The position numbers and the translations under genes were made by a program. Below are positions 1 to 23,634 of a stretch of 64,000 nucleotides of DNA, piece after piece (the first letter of the stretch is position 1; each line of letters opens with the position of its first letter). A model generated the notes under the pieces. The model saw only the letters and a program-made list of their open reading frames with translations. It did no database searches and had not been told where the DNA came from. This stretch comes from Trichostrongylus colubriformis. Its lineage: Eukaryota; Nematoda; Chromadorea; Rhabditida; Trichostrongylidae. The stretch is taken from contig OZ022258.1 of NCBI GenBank assembly GCA_963978905.1, positions 48,282,591 to 48,346,590 of the forward strand, given 5' to 3'.

Positions 1-43
1 ACTTCTAATCAGAAGATTGCCGGTTCGACCCCGGCCGTGGGCT
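1..43 (+). tRNA. tRNA-Arg(UCU), array copy cut by window edge
   Basis: Bases 31-73 of the consensus tRNA, including the anticodon loop, T arm and 3' acceptor strand. The 5' half lies outside the window. Confidence 0.9.
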
Positions 44-181
44 TAGTTTTTGCTGTCGCCAAAAAAGAATGTGGATGATGTTATGATGCCTTTGGACATT
101 ACTATTCTCTCTCTGTTTCTCCGATTATTCAGAAAATACCAGGATTATGGAGCAGTGAAGCGGTGTCATTTTCGAGTTGGT

Positions 182-254
182 GCCCGCGTGGCCTAATGGA
201 TAAGGCGTCTGACTTCTAATCAGAAGATTGCCGGTTCGACCCCGGCCGTGGCCT
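182..254 (+). tRNA. tRNA-Arg(UCU), array copy 1
   Basis: G71C breaks one acceptor pair; promoter boxes and T5 intact. Confidence 0.88.
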
Positions 255-392
255 TAGTTTTTGCTGTCGCCAAAAAAGAATGTGGATGATGTTATGATGC
301 CTTTGGACATTACTATTCCCTCTCTGTTTCTCCGATTATTCAGAAAATACCAGGATTATGGAGCAGTGAAGCGGTGTCATTTTCGAGTTGGT

Positions 393-465
393 GCCCGCGT
401 GGCCTAATGGATAAGGCGTCTGACTTCTAATCAGAAGATTGCCGGTTCGACCCCGGCCGTGGGCT
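393..465 (+). tRNA. tRNA-Arg(UCU), array copy 2
   Basis: Consensus body; T5 follows. Confidence 0.95.
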
Positions 466-603
466 TAGTTTTTGCTGTCGCCAAAAAAGAATGTGGATGA
501 TGTTATGATGCCTTTGGACATTACTATTCTCTCTCTGTTTCTCCGATTATTCAGAAAATTCCAGGATTATGGAGCAGTGAAGCGGTGTCATTTTCGAGAT
601 GGT

Positions 604-676
604 GCCCGCGTGGCCTAATGGATAAGGCGTCTGACTTCTAATCAGAAGACTGCCGGTTCGACCCCGGTTCGAGCCT
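604..676 (+). pseudogene. tRNA-Arg(UCU) array copy 3, 3' acceptor strand destroyed
   Basis: The 5' two thirds are consensus, but the 3' strand reads TCGAGCC instead of CGTGGGC, as if the B-box sequence GGTTCGA had been copied a second time. The acceptor stem cannot form. Confidence 0.8.
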
Positions 677-814
677 TAGTTTTTGCTGTCGCCAAAAAAG
701 AATGTGGATGATGTTATGATGCCTTTGGACATTACTATTCTCTCTCTGTTTCTCCGATTATTCAGAAAATACCAGGATTATGGAGCAGTGAAGCGGTGTC
801 ATTTTCGAGTTGGT

Positions 815-887
815 GCCCGCGTGGCCTAATGGATAAGGCGTCTGACTTCTAATCAGAAGATTGCCGGTTCCACCCCGGCCGTGGGCT
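815..887 (+). tRNA. tRNA-Arg(UCU), array copy 4
   Basis: G57C in T loop/B box. Confidence 0.82.
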
Positions 888-1025
888 TAGTTTTTGCTGT
901 CGCCAAAAAAGAATGTGGATGATGTTATGATGCCTTTGGACATCTCCATTCCCTCTCTGTTTCTCCGATTATTCAGAAAATACCACGATTATGGAGCAGT
1001 GAAGCGGTGTCATTTCCGAGGTGGT

Positions 1026-1098
1026 GCCCGCGTGGCCTAATGGATAAGGCGTCTGACTTCTAATCAGAAGATTGCCGGTTCCACCCCGGCCGTGGGCT
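1026..1098 (+). tRNA. tRNA-Arg(UCU), array copy 5
   Basis: G57C in T loop/B box; spacer variants shared with copy 63. Confidence 0.82.
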
Positions 1099-1236
1099 TA
1101 GTTTTTGCCGTCGCCAAAAAAGAATGTGGATGATGTTGTGATGCCTTTGGACATTACTATTCTCTCTCTGTTTCTCCGATTACTCAGAAAATACCAGGAT
1201 CATGGAGCAGTGAAGCGGTGTCAATTTCGAGATGGT

Positions 1237-1309
1237 GCCCGCGTGGCCTAATGGATAAGGCGTCTGACTTCTAATCAGAAGATTGCCGGTTCGACCCCGG
1301 CCGTGGGCT
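1237..1309 (+). tRNA. tRNA-Arg(UCU), array copy 6
   Basis: Consensus body, but only T3 follows, so the unit lacks a normal pol III terminator. Confidence 0.93.
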
Positions 1310-1445
1310 TAGTTTGCTGTCGCCAAAAAAGAATGTGGATGATGTTATGATGCCTTTGGACATTACTATTCTCTCTCTGTTTCTCCGATTATTCAGAAAA
1401 TACCAGGATTATGGAGCAGTGAAGCGGTGTCATTTTCCAGTTGGT

Positions 1446-1518
1446 GCCCGCGTGGCCTAATGGATAAGGCGTCTGACTTCTAATCAGAAGATTGCCGGTT
1501 CGACCCCGGCCGTGGGCT
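1446..1518 (+). tRNA. tRNA-Arg(UCU), array copy 7
   Basis: Consensus body; T5 follows. Confidence 0.95.
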
Positions 1519-1656
1519 TAGTTTTTGCTGTCGCCAAAAAAGAATGTGGATGATGTTATGATGCCTTTGGACATTACTATTCCCTCTCTGTTTCTCCGAT
1601 TACTCAGAAAATACCAGGATCATGGAGCAGTGAAGCGGTGTCATTTTCGAGATGGT

Positions 1657-1729
1657 GCCCGCGTGGCCTAATGGATGAGGCGTCTGACTTCTAATCAGAA
1701 GATTGCCGGTTCGACCCCGGCCGTGGGCT
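1657..1729 (+). tRNA. tRNA-Arg(UCU), array copy 8
   Basis: A21G in the D loop, a position usually conserved as A. Confidence 0.87.
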
Positions 1730-1867
1730 TAGTTTTTGCTGTCGCCAAAAAAGAATGTGGATGATGTTATGATGCCTTTGGACATTACTATTCTCTCTCT
1801 GTTTCTCCGATTATTCAGAAAATACCAGGATTATGGAGCAGTGAAGCGGTGTCATTTTCGAGTTGGT

Positions 1868-1940
1868 GCCCGCGTGGCCTAATGGATAAGGCGTCTGACT
1901 TCTAATCAGAAGATTGCCGGTTCGACCCCGGCCGTGGGCT
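1868..1940 (+). tRNA. tRNA-Arg(UCU), array copy 9
   Basis: Consensus body; T5 follows. Confidence 0.95.
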
Positions 1941-2078
1941 TAGTTTTTGGTGTCGCCAAAAAAGAATGTGGATGATGTTATGATGCCTTTGGACATTACT
2001 ATTCCCTCTCTGTTTCTCCGATTATTCAGAAAATACCAGGACTATGGAGCAGTGAAGCGGTGTCATTTTCGAGATGGT

Positions 2079-2151
2079 GCCCGCGTGGCCTAATGGATAA
2101 GGAGTCTGACTTCTAATCAGAAGATTGCCGGTTCGACCCCGGCCGTGGGCT
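2079..2151 (+). tRNA. tRNA-Arg(UCU), array copy 10
   Basis: C25A breaks the first D-stem pair; followed by a short 50-bp spacer. Confidence 0.87.
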
Positions 2152-2201
2152 TAATTTTTGCTGTCGCCAAAAAGGAATGAGGATGATGATAGAGAGATGG
2201 T

Positions 2202-2274
2202 GCCCGCGTGGTCTAATGGATAAGGAGTCTGACTTCTAATCAGAAGATTGCCGTTTCGACCCCGGCCGTGGGCT
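2202..2274 (+). tRNA. tRNA-Arg(UCU), array copy 11
   Basis: C11T, C25A and G53T; probably weak. Confidence 0.72.
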
Positions 2275-2412
2275 TAGTTTTTGGTGTCGCCAAAAAAGAA
2301 TGTGGATGATGTTATGATGCCTTTGGACATTACTATTCCCTCTCTGTTTCTCCGATTATTCAGAAAATACCAGGATTATGGAGCAGTGAAGCGGTGTCAT
2401 TTTCGAGTTGGT

Positions 2413-2485
2413 GCCCGCGTGGCCTAATGGATAAGGCGTCTGACTTCTAATCAGAAGATTGCCGGTTCGACCCCGGCCGTGGGCT
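2413..2485 (+). tRNA. tRNA-Arg(UCU), array copy 12
   Basis: Consensus body; T5 follows. Confidence 0.95.
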
Positions 2486-2623
2486 TAGTTTTTGCTGTCG
2501 CCAAAAAAGAATGTGGATGATGTTATGATGCCTTTGGACATTACTATTCTCTCTCTGTTTCTCCGATTATTCAGAAAATACCAGGATTATGGAGCAGTGA
2601 AGCGGTGTCATTTTCGAGTTGGT

Positions 2624-2696
2624 GCCCGCGTGGCCTAATGGATAAGGCGTCTGACTTCTAATCAGAAGATTGCCGTTTCGACCCCGGCCGTGGGCT
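2624..2696 (+). tRNA. tRNA-Arg(UCU), array copy 13
   Basis: G53T. Confidence 0.8.
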
Positions 2697-2834
2697 TAGT
2701 TTTTGCTGTCGCCAAAAAAGAATGTGGATGATGTTATGATGCCTTTGGACATTACTATTCTCTCTCTGTTTCTCCGATTATTCAGAAAATACCAGGATTA
2801 TGGAGCAGTGAAGCGGTGTCATTTTCGAGTTGGT

Positions 2835-2907
2835 GCCCGCGTGGCCTAATGGATAAGGCGTCTGACTTCTAATCAGAAGATTGCCGTTTCGACCCCGGCC
2901 GTGGGCT
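2835..2907 (+). tRNA. tRNA-Arg(UCU), array copy 14
   Basis: G53T. Confidence 0.8.
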
Positions 2908-3045
2908 TAGTTTTTGCTGTCGCCAAAAAAGAATGTGGATGATGTTATGATGCCTTTGGACATTACTATTCTCTCTCTGTTTCTCCGATTATTCAGAAAA
3001 TACCAGGATTATGGAGCAGTGAAGCGGTGTTATTTTCGAGTTGGT

Positions 3046-3118
3046 GCCCGCGTGGCCTAATGGATAAGGCGTCTGACTTCTAATCAGAAGATTGCCGGTT
3101 CGACCCCGGCCGTGGCCT
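3046..3118 (+). tRNA. tRNA-Arg(UCU), array copy 15
   Basis: G71C. Confidence 0.87.
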
Positions 3119-3256
3119 TAGTTTTTGCTGTCGCCAAAAAAGAATGTGGATGATGTTATGATGCCTTTGGACATTACTATTCCCTCTCTGTTTCTCCGAT
3201 TATTCAGAAAATACCAGGATTATGGAGCAGTGAAGCGGTGTCATTTTCGAGTTGGT

Positions 3257-3329
3257 GCCCGCGTGGCCTAATGGATAAGGCGTCTGACTTCTAATCAGAA
3301 GATTGCCGGTTCGACCCCGGCCGTGGGCT
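3257..3329 (+). tRNA. tRNA-Arg(UCU), array copy 16
   Basis: Consensus body; T5 follows. Confidence 0.95.
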
Positions 3330-3467
3330 TAGTTTTTGGTGTCGCCAAAAAAGAATGTGGATGATGTTATGATGCCTTTGGACATTACTATTCCCTCTCT
3401 GTTTCTCCGATTATTCAGAAAATACCAGGACTATGGAGCAGTGAAGCGGTGTCATTTTCGAGATGGT

Positions 3468-3540
3468 GCCCGCGTGGCCTAATGGATAAGGAGTCTGACT
3501 TCTAATCAGAAGATTGCCGGTTCGACCCCGGCCGTGGGCT
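3468..3540 (+). tRNA. tRNA-Arg(UCU), array copy 17
   Basis: C25A; short spacer follows. Confidence 0.87.
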
Positions 3541-3590
3541 TAATTTTTGCTGTCGCCAAAAAGGAATGAGGATGATGATAGAGAGATGGT

Positions 3591-3663
3591 GCCCGCGTGG
3601 TCTAATGGATAAGGAGTCTGACTTCTAATCAGAAGATTGCCGTTTCGACCCCGGCCGTGGGCT
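3591..3663 (+). tRNA. tRNA-Arg(UCU), array copy 18
   Basis: C11T, C25A, G53T. Confidence 0.72.
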
Positions 3664-3801
3664 TAGTTTTTGGTGTCGCCAAAAAAGAATGTGGATGATG
3701 TTATGATGCCTTTGGACATTACTATTCCCTCTCTGTTTCTCCGATTATTCAGAAAATACCAGGATTATGGAGCAGTGAAGCGGTGTCATTTTCGAGTTGG
3801 T

Positions 3802-3874
3802 GCCCGCGTGGCCTAATGGATAAGGCGTCTGACTTCTAATCAGAAGATTGCCGGTTCGACCCCGGCCGTGGGCT
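3802..3874 (+). tRNA. tRNA-Arg(UCU), array copy 19
   Basis: Consensus body; T5 follows. Confidence 0.95.
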
Positions 3875-4012
3875 TAGTTTTTGCTGTCGCCAAAAAAGAA
3901 TGTGGATGATGTTATGATGCCTTTGGACATTACTATTCTCTCTCTGTTTCTCCGATTATTCAGAAAATACCAGGATTATGGAGCAGTGAAGCGGTGTCAT
4001 TTTCGAGTTGGT

Positions 4013-4085
4013 GCCCGCGTGGCCTAATGGATAAGGCGTCTGACTTCTAATCAGAAGATTGCCGTTTCGACCCCGGCCGTGGGCT
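4013..4085 (+). tRNA. tRNA-Arg(UCU), array copy 20
   Basis: G53T. Confidence 0.8.
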
Positions 4086-4223
4086 TAGTTTTTGCTGTCG
4101 CCAAAAAAGAATGTGGATGATGTTATGATGCCTTTGGACATTACTATTCTCTCTCTGTTTCTCCGATTATTCAGAAAATACCAGGATTATGGAGCAGTGA
4201 AGCGGTGTCATTTTCGAGTTGGT

Positions 4224-4296
4224 GCCCGCGTGGCCTAATGGATAAGGCGTCTGACTTCTAATCAGAAGATTGCCGTTTCGACCCCGGCCGTGGGCT
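4224..4296 (+). tRNA. tRNA-Arg(UCU), array copy 21
   Basis: G53T. Confidence 0.8.
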
Positions 4297-4434
4297 TAGT
4301 TTTTGCTGTCGCCAAAAAAGAATGTGGATGATGTTATGATGCCTTTGGACATTACTATTCTCTCTCTGTTTCTCCGATTATTCAGAAAATACCAGGATTA
4401 TGGAGCAGTGAAGCGGTGTTATTTTCGAGTTGGT

Positions 4435-4507
4435 GCCCGCGTGGCCTAATGGATAAGGCGTCTGACTTCTAATCAGAAGATTGCCGGTTCGACCCCGGCC
4501 GTGGCCT
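4435..4507 (+). tRNA. tRNA-Arg(UCU), array copy 22
   Basis: G71C. Confidence 0.87.
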
Positions 4508-4645
4508 TAGTTTTTGCTGTCGCCAAAAAAGAATGTGGATGATGTTATGATGCCTTTGGACATTACTATTCCCTCTCTGTTTCTCCGATTATTCAGAAAA
4601 TACCAGGATTATGGAGCAGTGAAGCGGTGTCATTTTCGAGTTGGT

Positions 4646-4718
4646 GCCCGCGTGGCCTAATGGATAAGGCGTCTGACTTCTAATCAGAAGATTGCCGGTT
4701 CGACCCCGGCCGTGGGCT
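4646..4718 (+). tRNA. tRNA-Arg(UCU), array copy 23
   Basis: Consensus body; T5 follows. Confidence 0.95.
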
Positions 4719-4856
4719 TAGTTTTTGCTGTCGCCAAAAAAGAATGTGGATGATGTTATGATGCCTTTGGACATTTCCATTCCCTCTCTGTTTCTCCGAT
4801 TATTCAGAAAATACCACGATTATGGAGCAGTGAAGCGGTGTCATTTTCGAGTTGGT

Positions 4857-4929
4857 GCCCGCGTGGCCTAATGGATAAGGCGTCTGACTTCTAATCAGAA
4901 GATTGCCGGTTCGACCCCGGCCGTGGGCT
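4857..4929 (+). tRNA. tRNA-Arg(UCU), array copy 24
   Basis: Consensus body; T5 follows. Confidence 0.95.
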
Positions 4930-5067
4930 TAGTTTTTGCTGTCGCCAAAAAAGAATGTGGATGATGTTATGATGCCTTTGGACATCTCCATTCCCTCTCT
5001 GTTTCTCCGATTATTCAGAAAATACCACGATTATGGAGCAGTGAAGCGGTGTCATTTTCGAGTTGGT

Positions 5068-5140
5068 GCCCGCGTGGCCTAATGGATAAGGCGTCTGACT
5101 TCTAATCAGAAGATTGCCGGTTCGACCCCGGCCGTGGGCT
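5068..5140 (+). tRNA. tRNA-Arg(UCU), array copy 25
   Basis: Consensus body; T5 follows. Confidence 0.95.
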
Positions 5141-5278
5141 TAGTTTTTGCTGTCGCCAAAAAAGAATGTGGATGATGTTATGATGCCTTTGGACATCTCC
5201 ATTCCCTCTCTGTTTCTCCGATTATTCAGAAAATACCACGATTATGGAGCAGTGAAGCGGTGTCATTTCCGAGGTGGT

Positions 5279-5351
5279 GCCCGCGTGGCCTAATGGATGA
5301 GGCGTCTGACTTCTAATCAGAAGATTGCCGGTTCGACCCCGGCCGTGGGCT
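5279..5351 (+). tRNA. tRNA-Arg(UCU), array copy 26
   Basis: A21G. Confidence 0.87.
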
Positions 5352-5489
5352 TAGTTTTTGCTGTCGCCAAAAAAGAATGTGGATGATGTTATGATGCCTT
5401 TGGACATCTCCATTCCCTCTCTGTTTCTCCGATTATTCAGAAAATACCACGATTATGGAGCAGTGAAGCGGTGTCATTTCCGAGTTGGT

Positions 5490-5562
5490 GCCCGCGTGGC
5501 CTAATGGATAAGGCGTCTGACTTCTAATCAGAAGATTGCCGTTTCGACCCCGGCCGTGGGCT
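5490..5562 (+). tRNA. tRNA-Arg(UCU), array copy 27
   Basis: G53T. Confidence 0.8.
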
Positions 5563-5700
5563 TAGTTTTTACTGTCGCCAAAAAAGAATGTGGATGATGT
5601 TATGATGCCTTTGGACATTACTATTCTCTCTCTGTTTCTCCGATTATTCAGAAAATACCACGATTATGGAGCAGTGAAGCGGTGTCATTTTCGAGTTGGT

Positions 5701-5773
5701 GCCCGCGTGGCCTAATGGATAAGGAGTCTGACTTCTAATCAGAAGATTGCCGGTTCGACCCCGGCCGTGGGCT
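5701..5773 (+). tRNA. tRNA-Arg(UCU), array copy 28
   Basis: C25A; short spacer follows. Confidence 0.87.
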
Positions 5774-5823
5774 TAATTTTTGCTGTCGCCAAAAAGGAAT
5801 GAGGATGATGATAGAGAGATGGT

Positions 5824-5896
5824 GCCCGCGTGGTCTAATGGATAAGGCGTCTGACTTCTAATCAGAAGATTGCCGTTTCGACCCCGGCCGTGGGCT
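5824..5896 (+). tRNA. tRNA-Arg(UCU), array copy 29
   Basis: C11T and G53T. Confidence 0.76.
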
Positions 5897-6034
5897 TAGT
5901 TTTTACTGTCGCCAAAAAAGAATGTGGATGATGTTATGATGCCTTTGGACATTACTATTCTCTCTCTGTTTCTCCGATTATTCAGAAAATACCACGATTA
6001 TGGAGCAGTGAAGCGGTGTCATTTTCGAGTTGGT

Positions 6035-6107
6035 GCCCGCGTGGCCTAATGGATAAGGAGTCTGACTTCTAATCAGAAGATTGCCGGTTCGACCCCGGCC
6101 GTGGGCT
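6035..6107 (+). tRNA. tRNA-Arg(UCU), array copy 30
   Basis: C25A; short spacer follows. Confidence 0.87.
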
Positions 6108-6157
6108 TAATTTTTGCTGTCGCCAAAAAGGAATGAGGATGATGATAGAGAGATGGT

Positions 6158-6230
6158 GCCCGCGTGGTCTAATGGATAAGGAGTCTGACTTCTAATCAGA
6201 AGATTGCCGGTTCGACCCCGGCCGTGGGCT
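6158..6230 (+). tRNA. tRNA-Arg(UCU), array copy 31
   Basis: C11T and C25A; B box intact. Confidence 0.82.
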
Positions 6231-6368
6231 TAGTTTTTGCTGTCGCCAAAAAAGAATGTGGATGATGTTATGATGCCTTTGGACATTACTATTCTCTCTC
6301 TGTTTCTCCGATTATTCAGAAAATACCAGGATTATGGAGCAGTGAAGCGGTGTTATTTTCGAGTTGGT

Positions 6369-6441
6369 GCCCGCGTGGCCTAATGGATAAGGCGTCTGAC
6401 TTCTAATCAGAAGATTGCCGGTTCGACCCCGGCCGTGGGCT
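6369..6441 (+). tRNA. tRNA-Arg(UCU), array copy 32
   Basis: Consensus body; T5 follows. Confidence 0.95.
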
Positions 6442-6579
6442 TAGTTTTTGGTGTCGCCAAAAAAGAATGTGGATGATGTTATGATGCCTTTGGACATTAC
6501 TATTCCCTCTCTGTTTCTCCGATTATTCAGAAAATACCAGGACTATGGAGCAGTGAAGCGGTGTCATTTTCGAGATGGT

Positions 6580-6652
6580 GCCCGCGTGGCCTAATGGATA
6601 AGGAGTCTGACTTCTAATCAGAAGATTGCCGGTTCGACCCCGGCCGTGGCCT
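6580..6652 (+). tRNA. tRNA-Arg(UCU), array copy 33 (recombinant)
   Basis: C25A and G71C together. The 5' half matches copy 44 and the 3' half matches copy 22, so a crossover point probably lies inside the gene. Confidence 0.84.
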
Positions 6653-6790
6653 TAGTTTTTGCTGTCGCCAAAAAAGAATGTGGATGATGTTATGATGCCT
6701 TTGGACATTACTATTCCCTCTCTGTTTCTCCGATTATTCAGAAAATACCAGGATTATGGAGCAGTGAAGCGGTGTCATTTTCGAGTTGGT

Positions 6791-6863
6791 GCCCGCGTGG
6801 CCTAATGGATAAGGCGTCTGACTTCTAATCAGAAGATTGCCGGTTCGACCCCGGCCGTGGGCT
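6791..6863 (+). tRNA. tRNA-Arg(UCU), array copy 34
   Basis: Consensus body; T5 follows. Confidence 0.95.
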
Positions 6864-7001
6864 TAGTTTTTGCTGTCGCCAAAAAAGAATGTGGATGATG
6901 TTATGATGCCTTTGGACATTTCCATTCCCTCTCTGTTTCTCCGATTATTCAGAAAATACCACGATTATGGAGCAGTGAAGCGGTGTCATTTTCGAGTTGG
7001 T

Positions 7002-7074
7002 GCCCGCGTGGCCTAATGGATAAGGCGTCTGACTTCTAATCAGAAGATTGCCGGTTCGACCCCGGCCGTGGGCT
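7002..7074 (+). tRNA. tRNA-Arg(UCU), array copy 35
   Basis: Consensus body; T5 follows. Confidence 0.95.
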
Positions 7075-7212
7075 TAGTTTTTGCTGTCGCCAAAAAAGAA
7101 TGTGGATGATGTTATGATGCCTTTGGACATCTCCATTCCCTCTCTGTTTCTCCGATTATTCAGAAAATACCACGATTATGGAGCAGTGAAGCGGTGTCAT
7201 TTTCGAGTTGGT

Positions 7213-7285
7213 GCCCGCGTGGCCTAATGGATAAGGCGTCTGACTTCTAATCAGAAGATTGCCGGTTCGACCCCGGCCGTGGGCT
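7213..7285 (+). tRNA. tRNA-Arg(UCU), array copy 36
   Basis: Consensus body; T5 follows. Confidence 0.95.
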
Positions 7286-7423
7286 TAGTTTTTGCTGTCG
7301 CCAAAAAAGAATGTGGATGATGTTATGATGCCTTTGGACATCTCCATTCCCTCTCTGTTTCTCCGATTATTCAGAAAATACCACGATTATGGAGCAGTGA
7401 AGCGGTGTCATTTCCGAGGTGGT

Positions 7424-7496
7424 GCCCGCGTGGCCTAATGGATAAGGCGTCTGACTTCTAATCAGAAGATTGCCGGTTCGACCCCGGCCGTGGGCT
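7424..7496 (+). tRNA. tRNA-Arg(UCU), array copy 37
   Basis: Consensus body; T5 follows. Differs from its block partner copy 26 at base 21. Confidence 0.95.
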
Positions 7497-7634
7497 TAGT
7501 TTTTGCTGTCGCCAAAAAAGAATGTGGATGATGTTATGATGCCTTTGGACATCTCCATTCCCTCTCTGTTTCTCCGATTATTCAGAAAATACCACGATTA
7601 TGGAGCAGTGAAGCGGTGTCATTTCCGAGTTGGT

Positions 7635-7707
7635 GCCCGCGTGGCCTAATGGATAAGGCGTCTGACTTCTAATCAGAAGATTGCCGTTTCGACCCCGGCC
7701 GTGGGCT
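7635..7707 (+). tRNA. tRNA-Arg(UCU), array copy 38
   Basis: G53T. Confidence 0.8.
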
Positions 7708-7845
7708 TAGTTTTTACTGTCGCCAAAAAAGAATGTGGATGATGTTATGATGCCTTTGGACATTACTATTCTCTCTCTGTTTCTCCGATTATTCAGAAAA
7801 TACCACGATTATGGAGCAGTGAAGCGGTGTCATTTTCGAGTTGGT

Positions 7846-7918: not shown

Positions 7919-7968
7919 TAATTTTTGCTGTCGCCAAAAAGGAATGAGGATGATGATAGAGAGATGGT

Positions 7969-11377: not shown

Positions 11378-11457
11378 GCCCGCGTGGCCTAATGGATAAT
11401 GGATAAGGAGTCTGACTTCTAATCAGAAGATTGCCGGTTCGACCCCGGCCGTGGGCT
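11378..11457 (+). pseudogene. tRNA-Arg(UCU) array copy 57 with D-arm duplication
   Basis: Seven bases (AATGGAT) are duplicated inside the D loop, giving an 80-nt gene, and C25A is also present. The A box is now doubled. Probably not a working tRNA. Confidence 0.75.
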
Positions 11458-15829: not shown

Positions 15830-15967
15830 TAGTTTTTGCTGTCGCCAAAAAAGAATGTGGATGATGTTATGATGCCTTTGGACATTGCTATTCTCTCTCT
15901 GTTTCTCCGATTATTCAGAAAATACCAGGATTATGGAGCAGTGAAGCGGTGTCATTTTCGAGTTGGT

Positions 15968-16040
15968 GCCCGGGTGGCCTAATGGATAAGGCGTCTGACT
16001 TCTAATCAGAAGATTGCCGGTTCGACCCCGGCCGTGGGCT
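15968..16040 (+). tRNA. tRNA-Arg(UCU), array copy 80
   Basis: C6G breaks one acceptor pair. Confidence 0.86.
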
Positions 16041-16178
16041 TAGTTTTTGCTGTCGCCAAAAAAGAATGTGGATGATGTTATGATGCCTTTGGACATTACT
16101 ATTCTCTCTCTGTTTCTCCGATTATTCAGAAAATACCAGGATTATGGAGCAGTGAAGCGGTGTCATTTTCGAGTTGGT

Positions 16179-16251
16179 GCCCGCGTGGCCTAATGGATAA
16201 GGCGTCTGACTTCTAATCAGAAGATTGCCGTTTCGACCCCGGCCGTGGGCT
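16179..16251 (+). tRNA. tRNA-Arg(UCU), array copy 81
   Basis: G53T. Confidence 0.8.
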
Positions 16252-16389
16252 TAGTTTTTGCTGTCGCCAAAAAAGAATGTGGATGATGTTATGATGCCTT
16301 TGGACATTGCTATTCTCTCTCTGTTTCTCCGATTATTCAGAAAATACCAGGATTATGGAGCAGTGAAGCGGTGTCATTTTCGAGTTGGT

Positions 16390-16462
16390 GCCCGGGTGGC
16401 CTAATAAATAAGGCGTCTGACTTCTAATCAGAAGATTGCCGGTTCGACCCCGGCCGTGGGCT
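16390..16462 (+). tRNA. tRNA-Arg(UCU), array copy 82
   Basis: C6G, and the D-loop GG (bases 17-18) is changed to AA, damaging both the A box and the D/T loop contact. Confidence 0.7.
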
Positions 16463-16600
16463 TAGTTTTTGCTGTCGCCAAAAAAGAATGTGGATGATGT
16501 TATGATGCCTTTGGACATTACTATTCTCTCTCTGTTTCTCCGATTATTCAGAAAATACCACGATTATGGAGCAGTGAAGCGGTGTCATTTTCGAGATGGT

Positions 16601-16673
16601 GCCCTCGTGGCCTAATGGATAAGGCGTCTGACTTCTAATCAGAAGATTGCCGGTTCGACCCCGGCCGTGGGCT
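16601..16673 (+). tRNA. tRNA-Arg(UCU), array copy 83
   Basis: G5T. Confidence 0.87.
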
Positions 16674-16811
16674 TAGTTTTTGCTGTCGCCAAAAAAGAAT
16701 GTGGATGATGTTATGATGCCTTTGGACATTACTATTCCCTCTCTGTTTCTCCGATTATTCAGAAAATACCAGGATTATGGAGCAGTGAAGCGGTGTCATT
16801 TTCGAGTTGGT

Positions 16812-16884
16812 GCCCGCGTGGCCTAATGGATAAGGCGTCTGACTTCTAATCAGAAGATTGCCGGTTCGACCCCGGCCGTGGGCT
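16812..16884 (+). tRNA. tRNA-Arg(UCU), array copy 84
   Basis: Consensus body; T5 follows. Confidence 0.95.
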
Positions 16885-17022
16885 TAGTTTTTGCTGTCGC
16901 CAAAAAAGAATGTGGATGATGTTATGATGCCTTTGGACATTACTATTCTCTCTCTGTTTCTCCGATTATTCAGAAAATACCAGGATTATGGAGCAGTGAA
17001 GCGGTGTCATTTTCGAGTTGGT

Positions 17023-17095
17023 GCCCGCGTGGCCTAATGGATAAGGCGTCTGACTTCTAATCAGAAGATTGCCGTTTCGACCCCGGCCGTGGGCT
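17023..17095 (+). tRNA. tRNA-Arg(UCU), array copy 85
   Basis: G53T. Confidence 0.8.
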
Positions 17096-17233
17096 TAGTT
17101 TTTGCTGTCGCCAAAAAAGAATGTGGATGATGTTATGATGCCTTTGGACATTACTATTCCCTCTCTGTTTCTCCGATTATTCAGAAAATACCAGGATTAT
17201 GGAGCAGTGAAGCGGTGTCATTTTCGAGTTGGT

Positions 17234-17306
17234 GCCCGCGTGGCCTAATGGATAAGGCGTCTGACTTCTAATCAGAAGATTGCCGTTTCGACCCCGGCCG
17301 TGGGCT
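17234..17306 (+). tRNA. tRNA-Arg(UCU), array copy 86
   Basis: G53T. Confidence 0.8.
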
Positions 17307-17444
17307 TAGTTTTTGCTGTCGCCAAAAAAGAATGTGGATGATGTTATGATGCCTTTGGACATTACTATTCCCTCTCTGTTTCTCCGATTATTCAGAAAAT
17401 ACCAGGATTATGGAGCAGTGAAGCGGTGTCATTTTCGAGTTGGT

Positions 17445-17517
17445 GCCCTCGTGGCCTAATGGATAAGGCGTCTGACTTCTAATCAGAAGATTGCCGGTTC
17501 CACCCCGGCCGTGGGCT
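17445..17517 (+). tRNA. tRNA-Arg(UCU), array copy 87
   Basis: G5T and G57C; first unit of the 1477-bp blocks. Confidence 0.78.
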
Positions 17518-17655
17518 TAGTTTTTGCTGTCGCCAAAAAAGAATGTGGATGATGTTATGATGCCTTTGGACATTACTATTCTCTCTCTGTTTCTCCGATT
17601 ATTCAGAAAATACCAGGATTATGGAGCAGTGAAGCGGTGTCATTTTCGAGTTGGT

Positions 17656-17728
17656 GCCCGCGTGGCCTAATGGATAAGGCGTCTGACTTCTAATCAGAAG
17701 ATTGCCGGTTCGACCCCGGCCGTGGGCT
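17656..17728 (+). tRNA. tRNA-Arg(UCU), array copy 88
   Basis: Consensus body; T5 follows. Confidence 0.95.
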
Positions 17729-17866
17729 TAGTTTTTGCTGTCGCCAAAAAAGAATGTGGATGATGTTATGATGCCTTTGGACATTACTATTCTCTCTCTG
17801 TTTCTCCGATTATTCAGAAAATACCAGGATTATGGAGCAGTGAAGCGGTGTCATTTTCGAGATGGT

Positions 17867-17939
17867 GCCCGCGTGGCCTAATGGGTAAGGCGTCAGACTT
17901 CTAATCAGAAGATTGCCGGTTCGACCCCGGCCGTGGGCT
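17867..17939 (+). tRNA. tRNA-Arg(UCU), array copy 89
   Basis: A19G, and T29A breaks one anticodon-stem pair. Confidence 0.83.
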
Positions 17940-18077
17940 TAGTTTTTGCTGTCGCCAAAAAAGAATGTGGATGATGTTATGATGCCTTTGGACATTACTA
18001 TTCCCTCTCTGTTTCTCCGATTATTCAGAAAATACCAGGATTATGGAGCAGTGAAGCGGTGTCGTTTTCGAGTTGGT

Positions 18078-18150
18078 GCCCGCGTGGCCTAATGGATAAG
18101 GCGTCTGACTTCTAATCAGAAGATTGCCGGTTCGACCCCGGCCGTGGGCT
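18078..18150 (+). tRNA. tRNA-Arg(UCU), array copy 90
   Basis: Consensus body; T5 follows. Confidence 0.95.
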
Positions 18151-18288
18151 TAGTTTTTGCTGTCGCCAAAAAAGAATGTGGATGATGTTATGATGCCTTT
18201 GGACATTACTATTCTCTCTCTGTTTCTCCGATTATTCAGAAAATACCAGGATTATGGAGCAGTGAAGCGGTGTCATTTTCGAGTTGGT

Positions 18289-18361
18289 GCCCGCGTGGCC
18301 TAATGGATAAGGCGTCTGACTTCTAATCAGAAGATTGCCGTTTCGACCCCGGCCGTGGGCT
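18289..18361 (+). tRNA. tRNA-Arg(UCU), array copy 91
   Basis: G53T. Confidence 0.8.
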
Positions 18362-18499
18362 TAGTTTTTGCTGTCGCCAAAAAAGAATGTGGATGATGTT
18401 ATGATGCCTTTGGACATTACTATTCTCTCTCTGTTTCTCCGATTATTCAGAAAATACCAGGATTATGGAGCAGTGAAGCGGTGTCATTTTCGAGTTGGT

Positions 18500-18572
18500 G
18501 CCCGCGTGGCCTAATGGATAAGGCGTCTGACTTCTAATCAGAAGATTGCCGTTTCGACCCCGGCCGTGGGCT
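18500..18572 (+). tRNA. tRNA-Arg(UCU), array copy 92
   Basis: G53T. Confidence 0.8.
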
Positions 18573-18710
18573 TAGTTTTTGGTGTCGCCAAAAAAGAATG
18601 TGGATGATGTTATGATGCCTTTGGACATTACTATTCCCTCTCTGTTTCTCCGATTATTCAGAAAATACCAGGATTATGGAGCAGTGAAGCGGTGTCATTT
18701 TCGAGTTGGT

Positions 18711-18783
18711 GCCCGCGTGGCCTAATGGATAAGGCGTCTGACTTCTAATCAGAAGATTGCCGTTTCGACCCCGGCCGTGGGCT
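18711..18783 (+). tRNA. tRNA-Arg(UCU), array copy 93
   Basis: G53T. Confidence 0.8.
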
Positions 18784-18921
18784 TAGTTTTTGCTGTCGCC
18801 AAAAAAGAATGTGGATGATGTTATGATGCCTTTGGACATTACTATTCCCTCTCTGTTTCTCCGATTATTCAGAAAATACCAGGATTATGGAGCAGTGAAG
18901 CGGTGTCATTTTCGAGTTGGT

Positions 18922-18994
18922 GCCCTCGTGGCCTAATGGATAAGGCGTCTGACTTCTAATCAGAAGATTGCCGGTTCCACCCCGGCCGTGGGCT
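18922..18994 (+). tRNA. tRNA-Arg(UCU), array copy 94
   Basis: G5T and G57C. Confidence 0.78.
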
Positions 18995-19132
18995 TAGTTT
19001 TTGCTGTCGCCAAAAAAGAATGTGGATGATGTTATGATGCCTTTGGACATTACTATTCTCTCTCTGTTTCTCCGATTATTCAGAAAATACCAGGATTATG
19101 GAGCAGTGAAGCGGTGTCATTTTCGAGTTGGT

Positions 19133-19205
19133 GCCCGCGTGGCCTAATGGATAAGGCGTCTGACTTCTAATCAGAAGATTGCCGGTTCGACCCCGGCCGT
19201 GGGCT
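19133..19205 (+). tRNA. tRNA-Arg(UCU), array copy 95
   Basis: Consensus body; T5 follows. Confidence 0.95.
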
Positions 19206-19343
19206 TAGTTTTTGCTGTCGCCAAAAAAGAATGTGGATGATGTTATGATGCCTTTGGACATTACTATTCTCTCTCTGTTTCTCCGATTATTCAGAAAATA
19301 CCAGGATTATGGAGCAGTGAAGCGGTGTCATTTTCGAGATGGT

Positions 19344-19416
19344 GCCCGCGTGGCCTAATGGGTAAGGCGTCAGACTTCTAATCAGAAGATTGCCGGTTCG
19401 ACCCCGGCCGTGGGCT
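19344..19416 (+). tRNA. tRNA-Arg(UCU), array copy 96
   Basis: A19G and T29A. Confidence 0.83.
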
Positions 19417-19554
19417 TAGTTTTTGCTGTCGCCAAAAAAGAATGTGGATGATGTTATGATGCCTTTGGACATTACTATTCCCTCTCTGTTTCTCCGATTA
19501 TTCAGAAAATACCAGGATTATGGAGCAGTGAAGCGGTGTCGTTTTCGAGTTGGT

Positions 19555-19627
19555 GCCCGCGTGGCCTAATGGATAAGGCGTCTGACTTCTAATCAGAAGA
19601 TTGCCGGTTCGACCCCGGCCGTGGGCT
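19555..19627 (+). tRNA. tRNA-Arg(UCU), array copy 97
   Basis: Consensus body; T5 follows. Confidence 0.95.
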
Positions 19628-19765
19628 TAGTTTTTGCTGTCGCCAAAAAAGAATGTGGATGATGTTATGATGCCTTTGGACATTACTATTCTCTCTCTGT
19701 TTCTCCGATTATTCAGAAAATACCAGGATTATGGAGCAGTGAAGCGGTGTCATTTTCGAGTTGGT

Positions 19766-19838
19766 GCCCGCGTGGCCTAATGGATAAGGCGTCTGACTTC
19801 TAATCAGAAGATTGCCGTTTCGACCCCGGCCGTGGGCT
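19766..19838 (+). tRNA. tRNA-Arg(UCU), array copy 98
   Basis: G53T. Confidence 0.8.
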
Positions 19839-19976
19839 TAGTTTTTGCTGTCGCCGAAAAAGAATGTGGATGATGTTATGATGCCTTTGGACATTACTAT
19901 TCTCTCTCTGTTTCTCCGATTATTCAGAAAATACCAGGATTATGGAGCAGTGAAGCGGTGTCATTTTCGAGTTGGT

Positions 19977-20049
19977 GCCCGCGTGGCCTAATGGATAAGG
20001 CGTCTGACTTCTAATCAGAAGATTGCCGTTTCGACCCCGGCCGTGGGCT
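19977..20049 (+). tRNA. tRNA-Arg(UCU), array copy 99
   Basis: G53T. Confidence 0.8.
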
Positions 20050-20187
20050 TAGTTTTTGGTGTCGCCAAAAAAGAATGTGGATGATGTTATGATGCCTTTG
20101 GACATTACTATTCCCTCTCTGTTTCTCCGATTATTCAGAAAATACCAGGATTATGGAGCAGTGAAGCGGTGTCATTTTCGAGTTGGT

Positions 20188-20260
20188 GCCCGCGTGGCCT
20201 AATGGATAAGGCGTCTGACTTCTAATCAGAAGATTGCCGTTTCGACCCCGGCCGTGGGCT
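20188..20260 (+). tRNA. tRNA-Arg(UCU), array copy 100
   Basis: G53T. Confidence 0.8.
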
Positions 20261-20398
20261 TAGTTTTTGCTGTCGCCAAAAAAGAATGTGGATGATGTTA
20301 TGATGCCTTTGGACATTACTATTCCCTCTCTGTTTCTCCGATTATTCAGAAAATACCAGGATTATGGAGCAGTGAAGCGGTGTCATTTTCGAGTTGGT

Positions 20399-20471
20399 GC
20401 CCTCGTGGCCTAATGGATAAGGCGTCTGACTTCTAATCAGAAGATTGCCGGTTCCACCCCGGCCGTGGGCT
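20399..20471 (+). tRNA. tRNA-Arg(UCU), array copy 101
   Basis: G5T and G57C. Confidence 0.78.
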
Positions 20472-20609
20472 TAGTTTTTGCTGTCGCCAAAAAAGAATGT
20501 GGATGATGTTATGATGCCTTTGGACATTACTATTCTCTCTCTGTTTCTCCGATTATTCAGAAAATACCAGGATTATGGAGCAGTGAAGCGGTGTCATTTT
20601 CGAGTTGGT

Positions 20610-20682
20610 GCCCGCGTGGCCTAATGGATAAGGCGTCTGACTTCTAATCAGAAGATTGCCGGTTCGACCCCGGCCGTGGGCT
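20610..20682 (+). tRNA. tRNA-Arg(UCU), array copy 102
   Basis: Consensus body; T5 follows. Confidence 0.95.
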
Positions 20683-20820
20683 TAGTTTTTGCTGTCGCCA
20701 AAAAAGAATGTGGATGATGTTATGATGCCTTTGGACATTACTATTCTCTCTCTGTTTCTCCGATTATTCAGAAAATACCAGGATTATGGAGCAGTGAAGC
20801 GGTGTCATTTTCGAGATGGT

Positions 20821-20893
20821 GCCCGCGTGGCCTAATGGGTAAGGCGTCAGACTTCTAATCAGAAGATTGCCGGTTCGACCCCGGCCGTGGGCT
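20821..20893 (+). tRNA. tRNA-Arg(UCU), array copy 103
   Basis: A19G and T29A. Confidence 0.83.
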
Positions 20894-21031
20894 TAGTTTT
20901 TGCTGTCGCCAAAAAAGAATGTGGATGATGTTATGATGCCTTTGGACATTACTATTCCCTCTCTGTTTCTCCGATTATTCAGAAAATACCAGGATTATGG
21001 AGCAGTGAAGCGGTGTCGTTTTCGAGTTGGT

Positions 21032-21104
21032 GCCCGCGTGGCCTAATGGATAAGGCGTCTGACTTCTAATCAGAAGATTGCCGGTTCGACCCCGGCCGTG
21101 GGCT
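21032..21104 (+). tRNA. tRNA-Arg(UCU), array copy 104
   Basis: Consensus body; T5 follows. Confidence 0.95.
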
Positions 21105-21242
21105 TAGTTTTTGCTGTCGCCAAAAAAGAATGTGGATGATGTTATGATGCCTTTGGACATTACTATTCTCTCTCTGTTTCTCCGATTATTCAGAAAATAC
21201 CAGGATTATGGAGCAGTGAAGCGGTGTCATTTTCGAGTTGGT

Positions 21243-21315
21243 GCCCGCGTGGCCTAATGGATAAGGCGTCTGACTTCTAATCAGAAGATTGCCGTTTCGA
21301 CCCCGGCCGTGGGCT
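21243..21315 (+). tRNA. tRNA-Arg(UCU), array copy 105
   Basis: G53T. Confidence 0.8.
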
Positions 21316-21453
21316 TAGTTTTTGCTGTCGCCAAAAAAGAATGTGGATGATGTTATGATGCCTTTGGACATTACTATTCTCTCTCTGTTTCTCCGATTAT
21401 TCAGAAAATACCAGGATTATGGAGCAGTGAAGCGGTGTCATTTTCGAGTTGGT

Positions 21454-21526
21454 GCCCGCGTGGCCTAATGGATAAGGCGTCTGACTTCTAATCAGAAGAT
21501 TGCCGTTTCGACCCCGGCCGTGGGCT
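21454..21526 (+). tRNA. tRNA-Arg(UCU), array copy 106
   Basis: G53T. Confidence 0.8.
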
Positions 21527-21664
21527 TAGTTTTTGGTGTCGCCAAAAAAGAATGTGGATGATGTTATGATGCCTTTGGACATTACTATTCCCTCTCTGTT
21601 TCTCCGATTATTCAGAAAATACCAGGATTATGGAGCAGTGAAGCGGTGTCATTTTCGAGTTGGT

Positions 21665-21737
21665 GCCCGCGTGGCCTAATGGATAAGGCGTCTGACTTCT
21701 AATCAGAAGATTGCCGTTTCGACCCCGGCCGTGGGCT
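21665..21737 (+). tRNA. tRNA-Arg(UCU), array copy 107
   Basis: G53T; the spacer has lost one G after the T run. Confidence 0.8.
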
Positions 21738-21874
21738 TAGTTTTTCTGTCGCCAAAAAAGAATGTGGATGATGTTATGATGCCTTTGGACATTACTATTC
21801 TCTCTCTGTTTCTCCGATTATTCAGAAAATACCAGGATTATGGAGCAGTGAAGCGGTGTCATTTTCGAGTTGGT

Positions 21875-21946
21875 GCCCGCGTGGCCTAATGGATAAGGCG
21901 TCTGACTTCTAATCAGAAGATTGCCGGTTCGACCCCGGCCTGGGCT
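21875..21946 (+). pseudogene. tRNA-Arg(UCU) array copy 108, acceptor base deleted
   Basis: One base is missing between the T stem and the 3' acceptor strand (CTGGGC instead of CGTGGGC), so the acceptor stem is shifted. The rest is consensus. Confidence 0.7.
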
Positions 21947-22084
21947 TAGTTTTTGCTGTCGCCAAAAAAGAATGTGGATGATGTTATGATGCCTTTGGAC
22001 ATTACTATTCTCTCTCTGTTTCTCCGATTATTCAGAAAATACCACGATTATGGAGCAGTGAAGCGGTGTCATTTTCGAGATGGT

Positions 22085-22157
22085 GCCCGCGTGGCCTAAT
22101 GGATAAGGCGTCAGACTTCTAATCAGAAGATTGCCGGTTCGACCCCGGCCGTGGGCT
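22085..22157 (+). tRNA. tRNA-Arg(UCU), array copy 109
   Basis: T29A without the A19G seen in copies 89, 96 and 103. Confidence 0.85.
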
Positions 22158-22295
22158 TAGTTTTTGCTGTCGCCAAAAAAGAATGTGGATGATGTTATGA
22201 TGCCTTTGGACATTACTATTCCCTCTCTGTTTCTCCGATTATTCAGAAAATACCAGGATTATGGAGCAGTGAAGCGGTGTCGTTTTCGAGTTGGT

Positions 22296-22368
22296 GCCCG
22301 CGTGGCCTAATGGATAAGGCGTCTGACTTCTAATCAGAAGATTGCCGGTTCGACCCCGGCCGTGGGCT
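22296..22368 (+). tRNA. tRNA-Arg(UCU), array copy 110
   Basis: Consensus body; T5 follows. Confidence 0.95.
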
Positions 22369-22506
22369 TAGTTTTTGCTGTCGCCAAAAAAGAATGTGGA
22401 TGATGTTATGATGCCTTTGGACATTACTATTCTCTCTCTGTTTCTCCGATTATTCAGAAAATACCAGGATTATGGAGCAGTGAAGCGGTGTCATTTTCGA
22501 GTTGGT

Positions 22507-22579
22507 GCCCGCGTGGCCTAATGGATAAGGCGTCTGACTTCTAATCAGAAGATTGCCGTTTCGACCCCGGCCGTGGGCT
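22507..22579 (+). tRNA. tRNA-Arg(UCU), array copy 111
   Basis: G53T. Confidence 0.8.
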
Positions 22580-22717
22580 TAGTTTTTGCTGTCGCCAAAA
22601 AAGAATGTGGATGATGTTATGATGCCTTTGGACATTACTATTCTCTCTCTGTTTCTCCGATTATTCAGAAAATACCAGGATTATGGAGCAGTGAAGCGGT
22701 GTCATTTTCGAGTTGGT

Positions 22718-22790
22718 GCCCGCGTGGCCTAATGGATAAGGCGTCTGACTTCTAATCAGAAGATTGCCGTTTCGACCCCGGCCGTGGGCT
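22718..22790 (+). tRNA. tRNA-Arg(UCU), array copy 112
   Basis: G53T. Confidence 0.8.
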
Positions 22791-22928
22791 TAGTTTTTGG
22801 TGTCGCCAAAAAAGAATGTGGATGATGTTATGATGCCTTTGGACATTACTATTCCCTCTCTGTTTCTCCGATTATTCAGAAAATACCACGATTATGGAGC
22901 AGTGAAGCGGTGTCATTTTCGAGTTGGT

Positions 22929-23001
22929 GCCCGCGTGGCCTAATGGATAAGGCGTCTGACTTCTAATCAGAAGATTGCCGTTTCGACCCCGGCCGTGGGC
23001 T
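22929..23001 (+). tRNA. tRNA-Arg(UCU), array copy 113
   Basis: G53T. Confidence 0.8.
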
Positions 23002-23139
23002 TAGTTTTTGCTGTCGCCAAAAAAGAATGTGGATGATGTTATGATGCCTTTGGACATTACTATTCTCTCTCTGTTTCTCCGATTATTCAGAAAATACCAG
23101 GATTATGGAGCAGTGAAGCGGTGTCATTTTCGAGTTGGT

Positions 23140-23212
23140 GCCCGCGTGGCCTAATGGATAAGGCGTCTGACTTCTAATCAGAAGATTGCCGGTTCGACCA
23201 CGGCCGTGGGCT
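23140..23212 (+). tRNA. tRNA-Arg(UCU), array copy 114
   Basis: C61A breaks the G53:C61 pair from the other side. Confidence 0.82.
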
Positions 23213-23350
23213 TAGTTTTTGCTGTCGCCAAAAAAGAATGTGGATGATGTTATGATGCCTTTGGACATTACCATTCTCTCTCTGTTTCTCCGATTATTCA
23301 GAAAATACCACGATTATGGAGCAGTGAAGCGGTGTCATTTTCGAGTTGGT

Positions 23351-23423
23351 GCCCGCGTGGCCTAATGGATAAGGCGTCTGACTTCTAATCAGAAGATTGC
23401 CGTTTCGACCCCGGCCGTGGGCT
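23351..23423 (+). tRNA. tRNA-Arg(UCU), array copy 115
   Basis: G53T. Confidence 0.8.
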
Positions 23424-23561
23424 TAGTTTTTGCTGTCGCCAAAAAAGAATGTGGATGATGTTATGATGCCTTTGGACATTACTATTCTCTCTCTGTTTCT
23501 CCGATTATTCAGAAAATACCACGATTATGGAGCAGTGAAGCGGTGTCATTTTCGAGACGGT

Positions 23562-23634
23562 GCCCGCGTGGCCTAATGGATAAGGCGTCTGACTTCTAAT
23601 CAGAAGATTGCCGGTTCGACCCCGGCCGTGGGCT
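23562..23634 (+). tRNA. tRNA-Arg(UCU), array copy 116 (last)
   Basis: Consensus body and T5. Its 3' flank departs from the long spacer and resembles the short-unit spacer, then a diverged long spacer. Confidence 0.95.

Follow-up and report, generated by a model that had tools for sequence, protein, structure and literature searches.

The tRNA genes of Caenorhabditis elegans are mostly scattered, and knowledge of nematode tRNA genes comes largely from this species; giant tandem tRNA arrays, moreover, collapse in short-read assemblies. The nearest precedent for the locus described here is in Nippostrongylus brasiliensis, where the tRNA 'VeCTRs' include tRNA-Trp in ~150 copies (unit of ~200 bp) and tRNA-Ser in 90 copies (spacer of 80 bp), the spacer being limited to that species (Eccles et al. 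2018, PMC5765664). The present locus lies in a window (the whole stretch of DNA analysed) of 64,000 nucleotides from Trichostrongylus colubriformis (contig OZ022258.1, here C5, positions 48,282,591 to 48,346,590). Judged from the relevant portions of the Nippostrongylus report, the two cases share a strongylid host, one tRNA gene per short unit, at least ~90 head-to-tail copies in one orientation and a private spacer. They differ in that the Nippostrongylus arrays described there are of Trp and Ser, whereas those identified here are of Arg, Lys, Thr, Met and Pro, and the chromosomal context, block structure, selection and mixed-anticodon array measured here go beyond that account. The sequence-only reading had named precedents in Entamoeba and some vertebrates and had described nematode tRNA genes, as known from C. 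elegans, as mostly dispersed; giant arrays of this kind are already published for a nematode. None of the papers listed by our searches of the open-access literature described the Arg, Lys, Thr, Met or Pro arrays found here, and the word 'tRNA' is absent from the portions consulted of the review 'Nematode chromosomes' (PMC9071541).

More distant systems share parts of this arrangement, as far as the consulted sections of each source describe them. Entamoeba also carries several kinds of tandem tRNA array per genome with mostly uniform copies, but its units hold up to five tRNA genes where the units here hold one (PMC2652664). In E. histolytica, short tandem repeats lie between the tRNA genes and almost all tRNA genes are in arrays (PMC2652664), whereas no short tandem repeats separate the array genes here (TRF in window positions 1-23690 gives periods of 211, 123 and 334 only) and at least some Arg, Lys, Pro and Ser genes lie elsewhere in the genome (a family search scored 63 of 25793 candidates). 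In Nematostella and teleosts, tRNA genes are described in clusters of fifty or more, one pictured cluster being rich in tRNA-Arg(TCT) mixed with Thr; pairs in Nematostella and zebrafish are mostly heterogeneous, in contrast to the one tRNA family per array found here, and those sections of the survey mention no such arrays in Caenorhabditis, the nematodes that it covers (PMC2888827). Tandem tRNA genes of few isotypes also make up the SYY cluster of Arabidopsis, a plant in which tRNA genes are otherwise mostly scattered, but this cluster combines Ser and Tyr genes and is known to be silent in most tissues while active in root-cap cells (PMC12308677). Human 1q23.3 also places tRNA genes within a tandem repeat; its unit is 7.3 kb long, binds CTCF and is less than 6% tRNA, compared with ~35% of the 211-bp unit here (PMC4041453).

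ARAGORN identifies 116 tRNA genes at window positions 182-23634, all on the plus strand, and TRF reports positions 1-23690 as a single array with a period of 211 bp. The count of 116 copies in 23.6 kb, their single orientation and the continuation past the window edge had all been read correctly from the letters. The 19 kb upstream of the window hold a further 92 tRNA-Arg(TCT) copies, including one that straddles the edge (its 3' part at 1-43, plus strand), and the complete array comprises 208 copies in 42.6 kb on one strand (C5:48263644-48306280), bordered at both ends by non-array sequence within a contig of 59.6 Mb. The array is genuine and bigger than first reported. A typical unit (1446-1656, plus strand) consists of a tRNA-Arg(TCT) gene at 1446-1518 (Rfam 68.5 bits) followed by a T-run terminator and the spacer. 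The 211-bp period claimed earlier holds for 176 of the 207 copy-to-copy intervals, but the spacing is mixed, with 14 intervals of 209 bp, 12 of 123 bp and 5 of other lengths; the 123-bp units, such as that at 2079-2201 (plus strand; ARAGORN, TRF), lack 88 bp of spacer. The claim of a single isoacceptor stands for 115 of the 116 window copies, and the remaining one, labelled Gln(CTG) by ARAGORN, is a damaged Arg copy (11378-11457, plus strand) that scores 30.8 bits, just above the Rfam tRNA gathering cut-off of 29, which all 116 copies reach. Across the complete array, 75 of 208 copies are identical to the 72-nt consensus, and the three tested stems, A box, B box and T4 run are all kept in 95, with 113 failing at least one of these checks; intact copies do exist in dozens, as first described, but they make up under half of the array. 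The T4 run is kept in 193 copies, whereas G53 in the B box is altered in 46 copies and position 57 in 29. The sequence-only reading had rightly asked about other loci and related species. When the unit at 1446-1656 was used as a BLAST query against its own genome, at least two other places matched the tRNA at 96%. The best candidates beyond the C5 array match the tRNA part only (query 1-84 of 211), and dispersed copies sharing a non-tRNA body, the hallmark of a tRNA-derived SINE, were not found among them; such a SINE is rejected on these grounds. Searches of plasmid and viral DNA gave nothing useful.

How did the copies multiply? Neighbouring units resemble each other no more closely than units in shuffled order do (0.0352 versus 0.0353), and the array consists of many distinct unit types in ordered blocks. 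A seven-unit block of 1389 bp (1868-3256, plus strand) is followed directly by an exact second copy (3257-4645, plus strand; string identity), and the longest exact repeat found extends over 4146 bp at an offset of 4972. Block duplication is how the Arg-TCT copies multiplied. The array closes with its final tRNA (23562-23634, plus strand; ARAGORN and sequence) and a decaying final spacer (23635-23740, plus strand) in which similarity to the unit fades, TRF ending the array at 23690 and the limit of 23740 being an estimate by eye. Further into the window lies a decayed relic, in inverted orientation, of about three successive units (29601-30035, minus strand), 31.5% different over 422 aligned columns, in which ARAGORN calls no tRNA. 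The relic shows that the repeat is old and implies a long residence with later homogenisation.

The Arg-TCT array is one of several. ARAGORN confirms six further arrays in the genome, for Arg-TCG, Arg-CCT, Lys-TTT, Thr-CGT, Met-CAT and Pro (TGG and CGG), and each array is given over to one tRNA family. Gene counts are 208 for Arg-TCT, 80 for Arg-TCG and 44 for Arg-CCT; the units of the Lys, Thr, Met and Pro arrays come from samples of 10, 10, 4.4 and 10 kb, respectively, rather than from full counts. Pattern searches, which covered periods of roughly 170-230 bp and whose listed places are a lower bound, add at least three arrays, at C1:46.617-46.632 Mb, at C5:6.530-6.534 Mb (possibly Gly, judging from its letters) and at C7:14.167-14.206 Mb (possibly Glu, on the same basis). 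One such search gave 322 forward and 76 reverse matches against 117 + 117 in the control; its counts were discarded and the listed places were then read with ARAGORN. The spacers of four arrays that were compared have at most 9 nt in common as their longest shared stretch and are therefore unrelated, so that the tRNA, not the spacer, is the common element. In that comparison, and in the own-genome BLAST taken as a lower bound, the Arg-TCT spacer is private to its array, the relic in the window being the exception.

Selection was assessed on full-length units, which left out 14 of 208 Arg-TCT units (the final unit and 13 of short or odd length), 8 of 79 Arg-TCG, 8 of 43 Arg-CCT, 1 of 49 Lys and none of the Thr (50), Met (23) or Pro (49) units. 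Pooled over seven arrays, variants present at 5% or more number 22 over 509 tRNA sites versus 113 over 886 spacer sites (p = 9e-8, from sites that are not independent because blocks are duplicated), and tRNA bodies thus carry 3-fold fewer spread variants per site than spacers do. For singletons the two are equal (36 in tRNA versus 59 in spacer, p = 0.83), and the ratio of common to single variants differs between the two (p = 3e-4 with the decayed last Arg-TCT unit excluded; with it included, p = 0.076, and p = 0.004 for singletons per site). The depletion of spread variants in tRNA bodies suggests working genes. Constraint is strongest where the tRNA/spacer ratio is lowest, in Lys (0.05), then Arg-TCG (0.16) and Met (0.17), and is suggestive only in Thr and Pro (p = 0.09 and 0.07). 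In Arg-TCT itself constraint does not reach significance: tRNA and spacer diversity stand in a ratio of 0.83 (bootstrap 0.33-1.92; p = 0.35 by permutation), and the tRNA shows no significant shortage of spread variants (5 over 72 sites versus 13 over 139 in the spacer, p = 0.61). A stronger apparent contrast in this array arose from spacer misalignment of the 123-bp units and false variants of the decayed last unit, and was not significant after their removal. For Arg-TCT, the tRNA body has more singletons per site than the spacer (12 over 72 sites versus 6 over 139, p = 0.004) and the ratio of common to single variants differs (p = 0.044, uncorrected), a pattern that would be expected if a transcribed, mutation-prone gene were pruned by selection. 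The parallel arrays, which range from strongly (Lys) to hardly (Arg-TCT) constrained, offer a natural experiment on the number of redundant copies that selection is able to guard.

We favour, with a probability of roughly 0.6, a model in which the Arg-TCT array arose by amplification of an ordinary pol III tRNA-Arg(UCU) locus and is one of several single-family arrays, homogenised by exchange and maintained by selection. Each ~200-bp unit would be a complete gene with internal A and B boxes, tRNA, T-run terminator and private spacer; unequal exchange would duplicate or delete blocks of many units, moving copy number up or down while the copies stay alike; and selection would retain enough tRNA-competent copies per array. 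Since selection would act on enough copies per array, individual copies could decay. We infer that the arrays are transcribed and have a role in translation, and that unequal exchange is the mechanism. The failure of 113 of 208 copies in a stem, A box, B box or T4 check, the satellite-like block structure and the absence of a significant difference in constraint between the Arg-TCT tRNA and its spacer would also fit selfish or structural satellite DNA in which the tRNA is incidental or just a pol III/TFIIIC landing site. However, each of the seven arrays contains a tRNA, the spacers of the four compared are unrelated, every window copy scores as a tRNA, and spread variants are depleted in the pooled tRNA bodies, very strongly in Lys, Arg-TCG and Met. 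This possibility, already raised by the sequence-only reading, is weakened by the pooled variation, if not by Arg-TCT alone, and we consider it unlikely. Slightly less probable is a mostly silent reserve that would be opened in one tissue or stage by analogy with SYY (PMC12308677, in the part consulted); rare use would be in keeping with the partly decayed copies, but the Lys, Arg-TCG and Met arrays are strongly constrained, which suggests that those are used regularly.

The amplified-locus model also has to be set against a special demand for an unusually high dose of an AGA-reading tRNA, which 208 genes for one isoacceptor might seem to indicate. The arrays for several other tRNA families contradict a peculiarity of AGA decoding. 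In the published tables for seven strongylids, as far as consulted, AGA makes up ~17-21% of Arg codons, CGA 21-23% and AGG 10-14%, against 208, 80 and 44 genes, so that AGA and CGA are about equally used despite the difference in gene number, and the optimal Arg codons of Ancylostoma ceylanicum are CGC and CGT (PMC1779591). We regard such a demand as highly improbable, and an assembly artefact or contaminating DNA as even more so. Exact 4-kb repeats do make array copy number hard to assemble, and the exact number could be miscounted; nevertheless, 134 kb were read without any N, non-array flanks lie on both sides, the numerous distinct unit types are ordered in blocks, and long reads of Nippostrongylus independently show tRNA arrays in the portions consulted (PMC5765664). 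Contamination is very unlikely because the same contig bears a strongylid-like protease exon, the single one compared (window positions 45287-45580), which over 90% of its length is 93% identical to Teladorsagia circumcincta; its identity to Necator is 74%.

If strongylids keep hundreds of single-tRNA copies in homogenised arrays, then tRNA supply, gene counts and the link between copy number and codon use need to be rethought. The oddest of the arrays is that for Pro (C1:7.978-8.025 Mb), in which TGG and CGG genes are interleaved, 27 and 23 among the 50 read. A broader proposal, to which we would not give even odds, is that strongylids reorganised much of their tRNA complement into single-family arrays that are separately homogenised, and that one such array can hold two balanced anticodons, setting the isoacceptor ratio through a polymorphism kept against homogenisation and providing a route for anticodon shifts. 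In the mixed Pro array, anticodon shifting can be tested directly. The near-even ratio might also reflect two old unit types that were duplicated in blocks, because just 2 of 23 Pro spacer types carry both anticodons. In the commonest Pro bodies of the two kinds (20 copies with TGG and 19 with CGG), the wobble base is the sole difference.

The window contains 116 tRNA genes predicted by ARAGORN, every one of them on the + strand between positions 182 and 23634, which agrees with the count and single orientation that the sequence-only reading had reported for 23.6 kb, and TRF resolves them as one array with a 211-bp period (window 1-23690). Each of the 116 copies reaches the Rfam tRNA gathering score, mostly with 61-68 bits, and from window 23400 to the end the last tRNA is the only sequence to reach the gathering score of any Rfam family. 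Chance is not a possible origin of such an arrangement. The expected single isoacceptor holds for the 115 copies called Arg(TCT), the exception being a damaged copy called as Gln. Within the 331-Mb genome of 52 contigs, the window lies on contig C5, and the array was correctly suspected of running off the window edge: it begins 19 kb upstream and comprises 208 tRNAs in 42.6 kb (C5:48263644-48306280). The 134 kb read around it contain no gap letters; at the 5’ border non-array sequence gives way to a truncated unit, and the 3’ border is a decaying spacer. The proposed 211-bp period describes 176 of the 207 unit intervals, but intervals of 209 bp (14), 123 bp (12) and other lengths (5) also occur.

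Inspection of the individual copies reveals considerable damage. The 72-nt consensus is matched exactly by 75 of the 208 copies; the A box is retained in 192, the B box (by our own scoring) in 131 and a T4 run in 193, while changes include G53 in 46 copies and position 57 in 29. Three stems, both boxes and the T4 run are all passed by 95 copies, consistent with the earlier statement that dozens retain an intact cloverleaf and pol III signals. Redundancy would explain the heavy damage tolerated in this, the largest fully read array.

How did the array grow? Adjacent units are no closer to each other than shuffled ones (0.0352 versus 0.0353, 500 shuffles), yet long blocks recur exactly, among them one of 20 units (offset 24) and others of 7-8 units. 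The sequence at window 1868-3256 is identical to that at 3257-4645, and the longest exact repeat found measures 4146 bp, its copies being offset by 4972. These recurring blocks mark block duplication, for which unequal exchange would be the simplest route. An inverted relic of ~3 units lies on the - strand, opposite to the array, 6 kb past its end (window 29601-30035), and is 31.5% diverged over 422 columns (K2P 0.42). For this reason the Arg-TCT unit, spacer included, is old at this locus, yet live units differ by a mean of 3.5% and have thus been homogenised since.

Six further arrays, each confirmed by ARAGORN, occur in the same genome. BLAST of one Arg-TCT unit matched two on C6, Arg(TCG) with 80 copies in ~194-bp units and Arg(CCT) with 44 in ~201-bp units, and an Rfam tRNA search in which 63 of 25793 candidates were scored located Lys(TTT) at C1 29.42-29.475 Mb. 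A pattern of B box, T-run and second B box produced 1233 matches, whereas the reversed control produced none; 69 of the matches are local to Arg-TCG, 35 to Arg-CCT and just 2 to Arg-TCT, because the period of the latter exceeds the pattern’s reach. Among the matches listed were Thr(CGT) (C1:3.869-3.906 Mb) and, from pattern variants, Met(CAT) (C1:3.739-3.782 Mb; C1:3738932-3782315) and Pro (C1:7.978-8.025 Mb; C1:7978348-8025333), with two sampled 500-bp stretches inside the Pro array holding no tRNA. At least three further candidate places were located by pattern alone (C1:46.617-46.632, C5:6.530-6.534 and C7:14.167-14.206 Mb; 272 matches, control 0), and there may be arrays beyond those among the matches listed. 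A comparison of the Arg-TCT, Arg-TCG, Arg-CCT and Lys arrays shows their spacers to be unrelated.

Selection was assessed on full-length units of all seven arrays (Lys, Thr, Met and Pro sampled in part), whose sites are non-independent owing to block duplication. Pooled over the arrays, 509 tRNA sites carry 22 variants at ≥5% and 886 spacer sites carry 113 (p 9e-8); the corresponding singletons number 36 and 59 (p 0.83), and the common:single contrast differs with p 3e-4, or 0.076 with the decayed last Arg-TCT unit kept. The tRNA/spacer diversity ratio is low for Lys (0.05), Arg-TCG (0.16), Met (0.17) and Arg-CCT (0.29; permutation p <0.02 each), and is 0.44 for Pro (p 0.07) and 0.55 for Thr (p 0.09). 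On the pooled contrast and these ratios, the set looks like working genes. Most likely, each array serves as the principal locus encoding its tRNA. The Arg-TCT array alone lacks significant constraint (ratio 0.83, p 0.35); its singletons are denser in the tRNA (12/72 sites versus 6/139 spacer sites, p 0.004) and its common:single contrast differs (p 0.044), each being one of several uncorrected tests.

An alternative hypothesis was that the animal needs a very high dose of AGA-reading tRNA. In extracts of PMC1779591, with codon columns ordered as in its Table 1, strongylids use AGA about as often as CGA, although the corresponding arrays contain 208 and 80 genes; for Ancylostoma ceylanicum, CGC and CGT are listed as the optimal Arg codons. 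Proportional codon demand therefore does not explain the arrays. The kind of array is already known, since excerpts of Eccles et al. (2018; PMC5765664), on Nippostrongylus brasiliensis, describe a massively repeated tRNA organization never seen in C. elegans. No paper listed by our open-access literature searches pointed to these tRNA families or to how many there are, nor to the block pattern, the measured constraint or the mixed-anticodon array.

The mixed array is that of Pro, where 10 kb of the array contain 50 interleaved tRNAs, 27 TGG and 23 CGG, with bodies mostly identical apart from the anticodon. The wobble base is the sole difference between the most frequent bodies of the two kinds (20 and 19 copies), and removing that site lowers tRNA diversity from 0.0166 to 0.0097. 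Of 23 spacer types, 2 carry both anticodons, which means that a given spacer type mostly goes with one anticodon.

Several minor observations can be added. Unit lengths of the seven read arrays cluster at 187-211 bp, Thr, Met and Pro having been found with patterns confined to about that range and the three Arg and Lys arrays without that limit; we infer roughly one nucleosome per unit. In all seven arrays and among solitary Arg and Lys genes, TTTTGC or TTTTTGC comes after most of the tRNAs seen, suggesting that the terminator may extend beyond a simple stretch of T; the C5:6.53 candidate shows variants such as TTTTGAC. The Met array listing has gaps, one of ~3.3 kb repeated four times, and two gap pieces resemble, by eye, retrotransposon endonuclease and reverse transcriptase. 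An Ile(AAT) tandem pair lies 180 bp apart at C1:5895535-5895788. Within the window, fragments of a mariner-type transposase (Pfam Transposase_1), lying in more than one reading frame, occupy 26730-27551 on the - strand. An A1 aspartic protease exon (Pfam Asp) at 45287-45580 on the + strand shares 93% identity with Teladorsagia circumcincta across 90% of its length, 97% with Ostertagia ostertagi across 32%, and 74% with Necator. Judged by this one exon, the nematode would be a strongylid and probably a trichostrongyloid. A similar + strand A1 exon (Pfam Asp) at 62521-62856 probably marks a duplicated gene.
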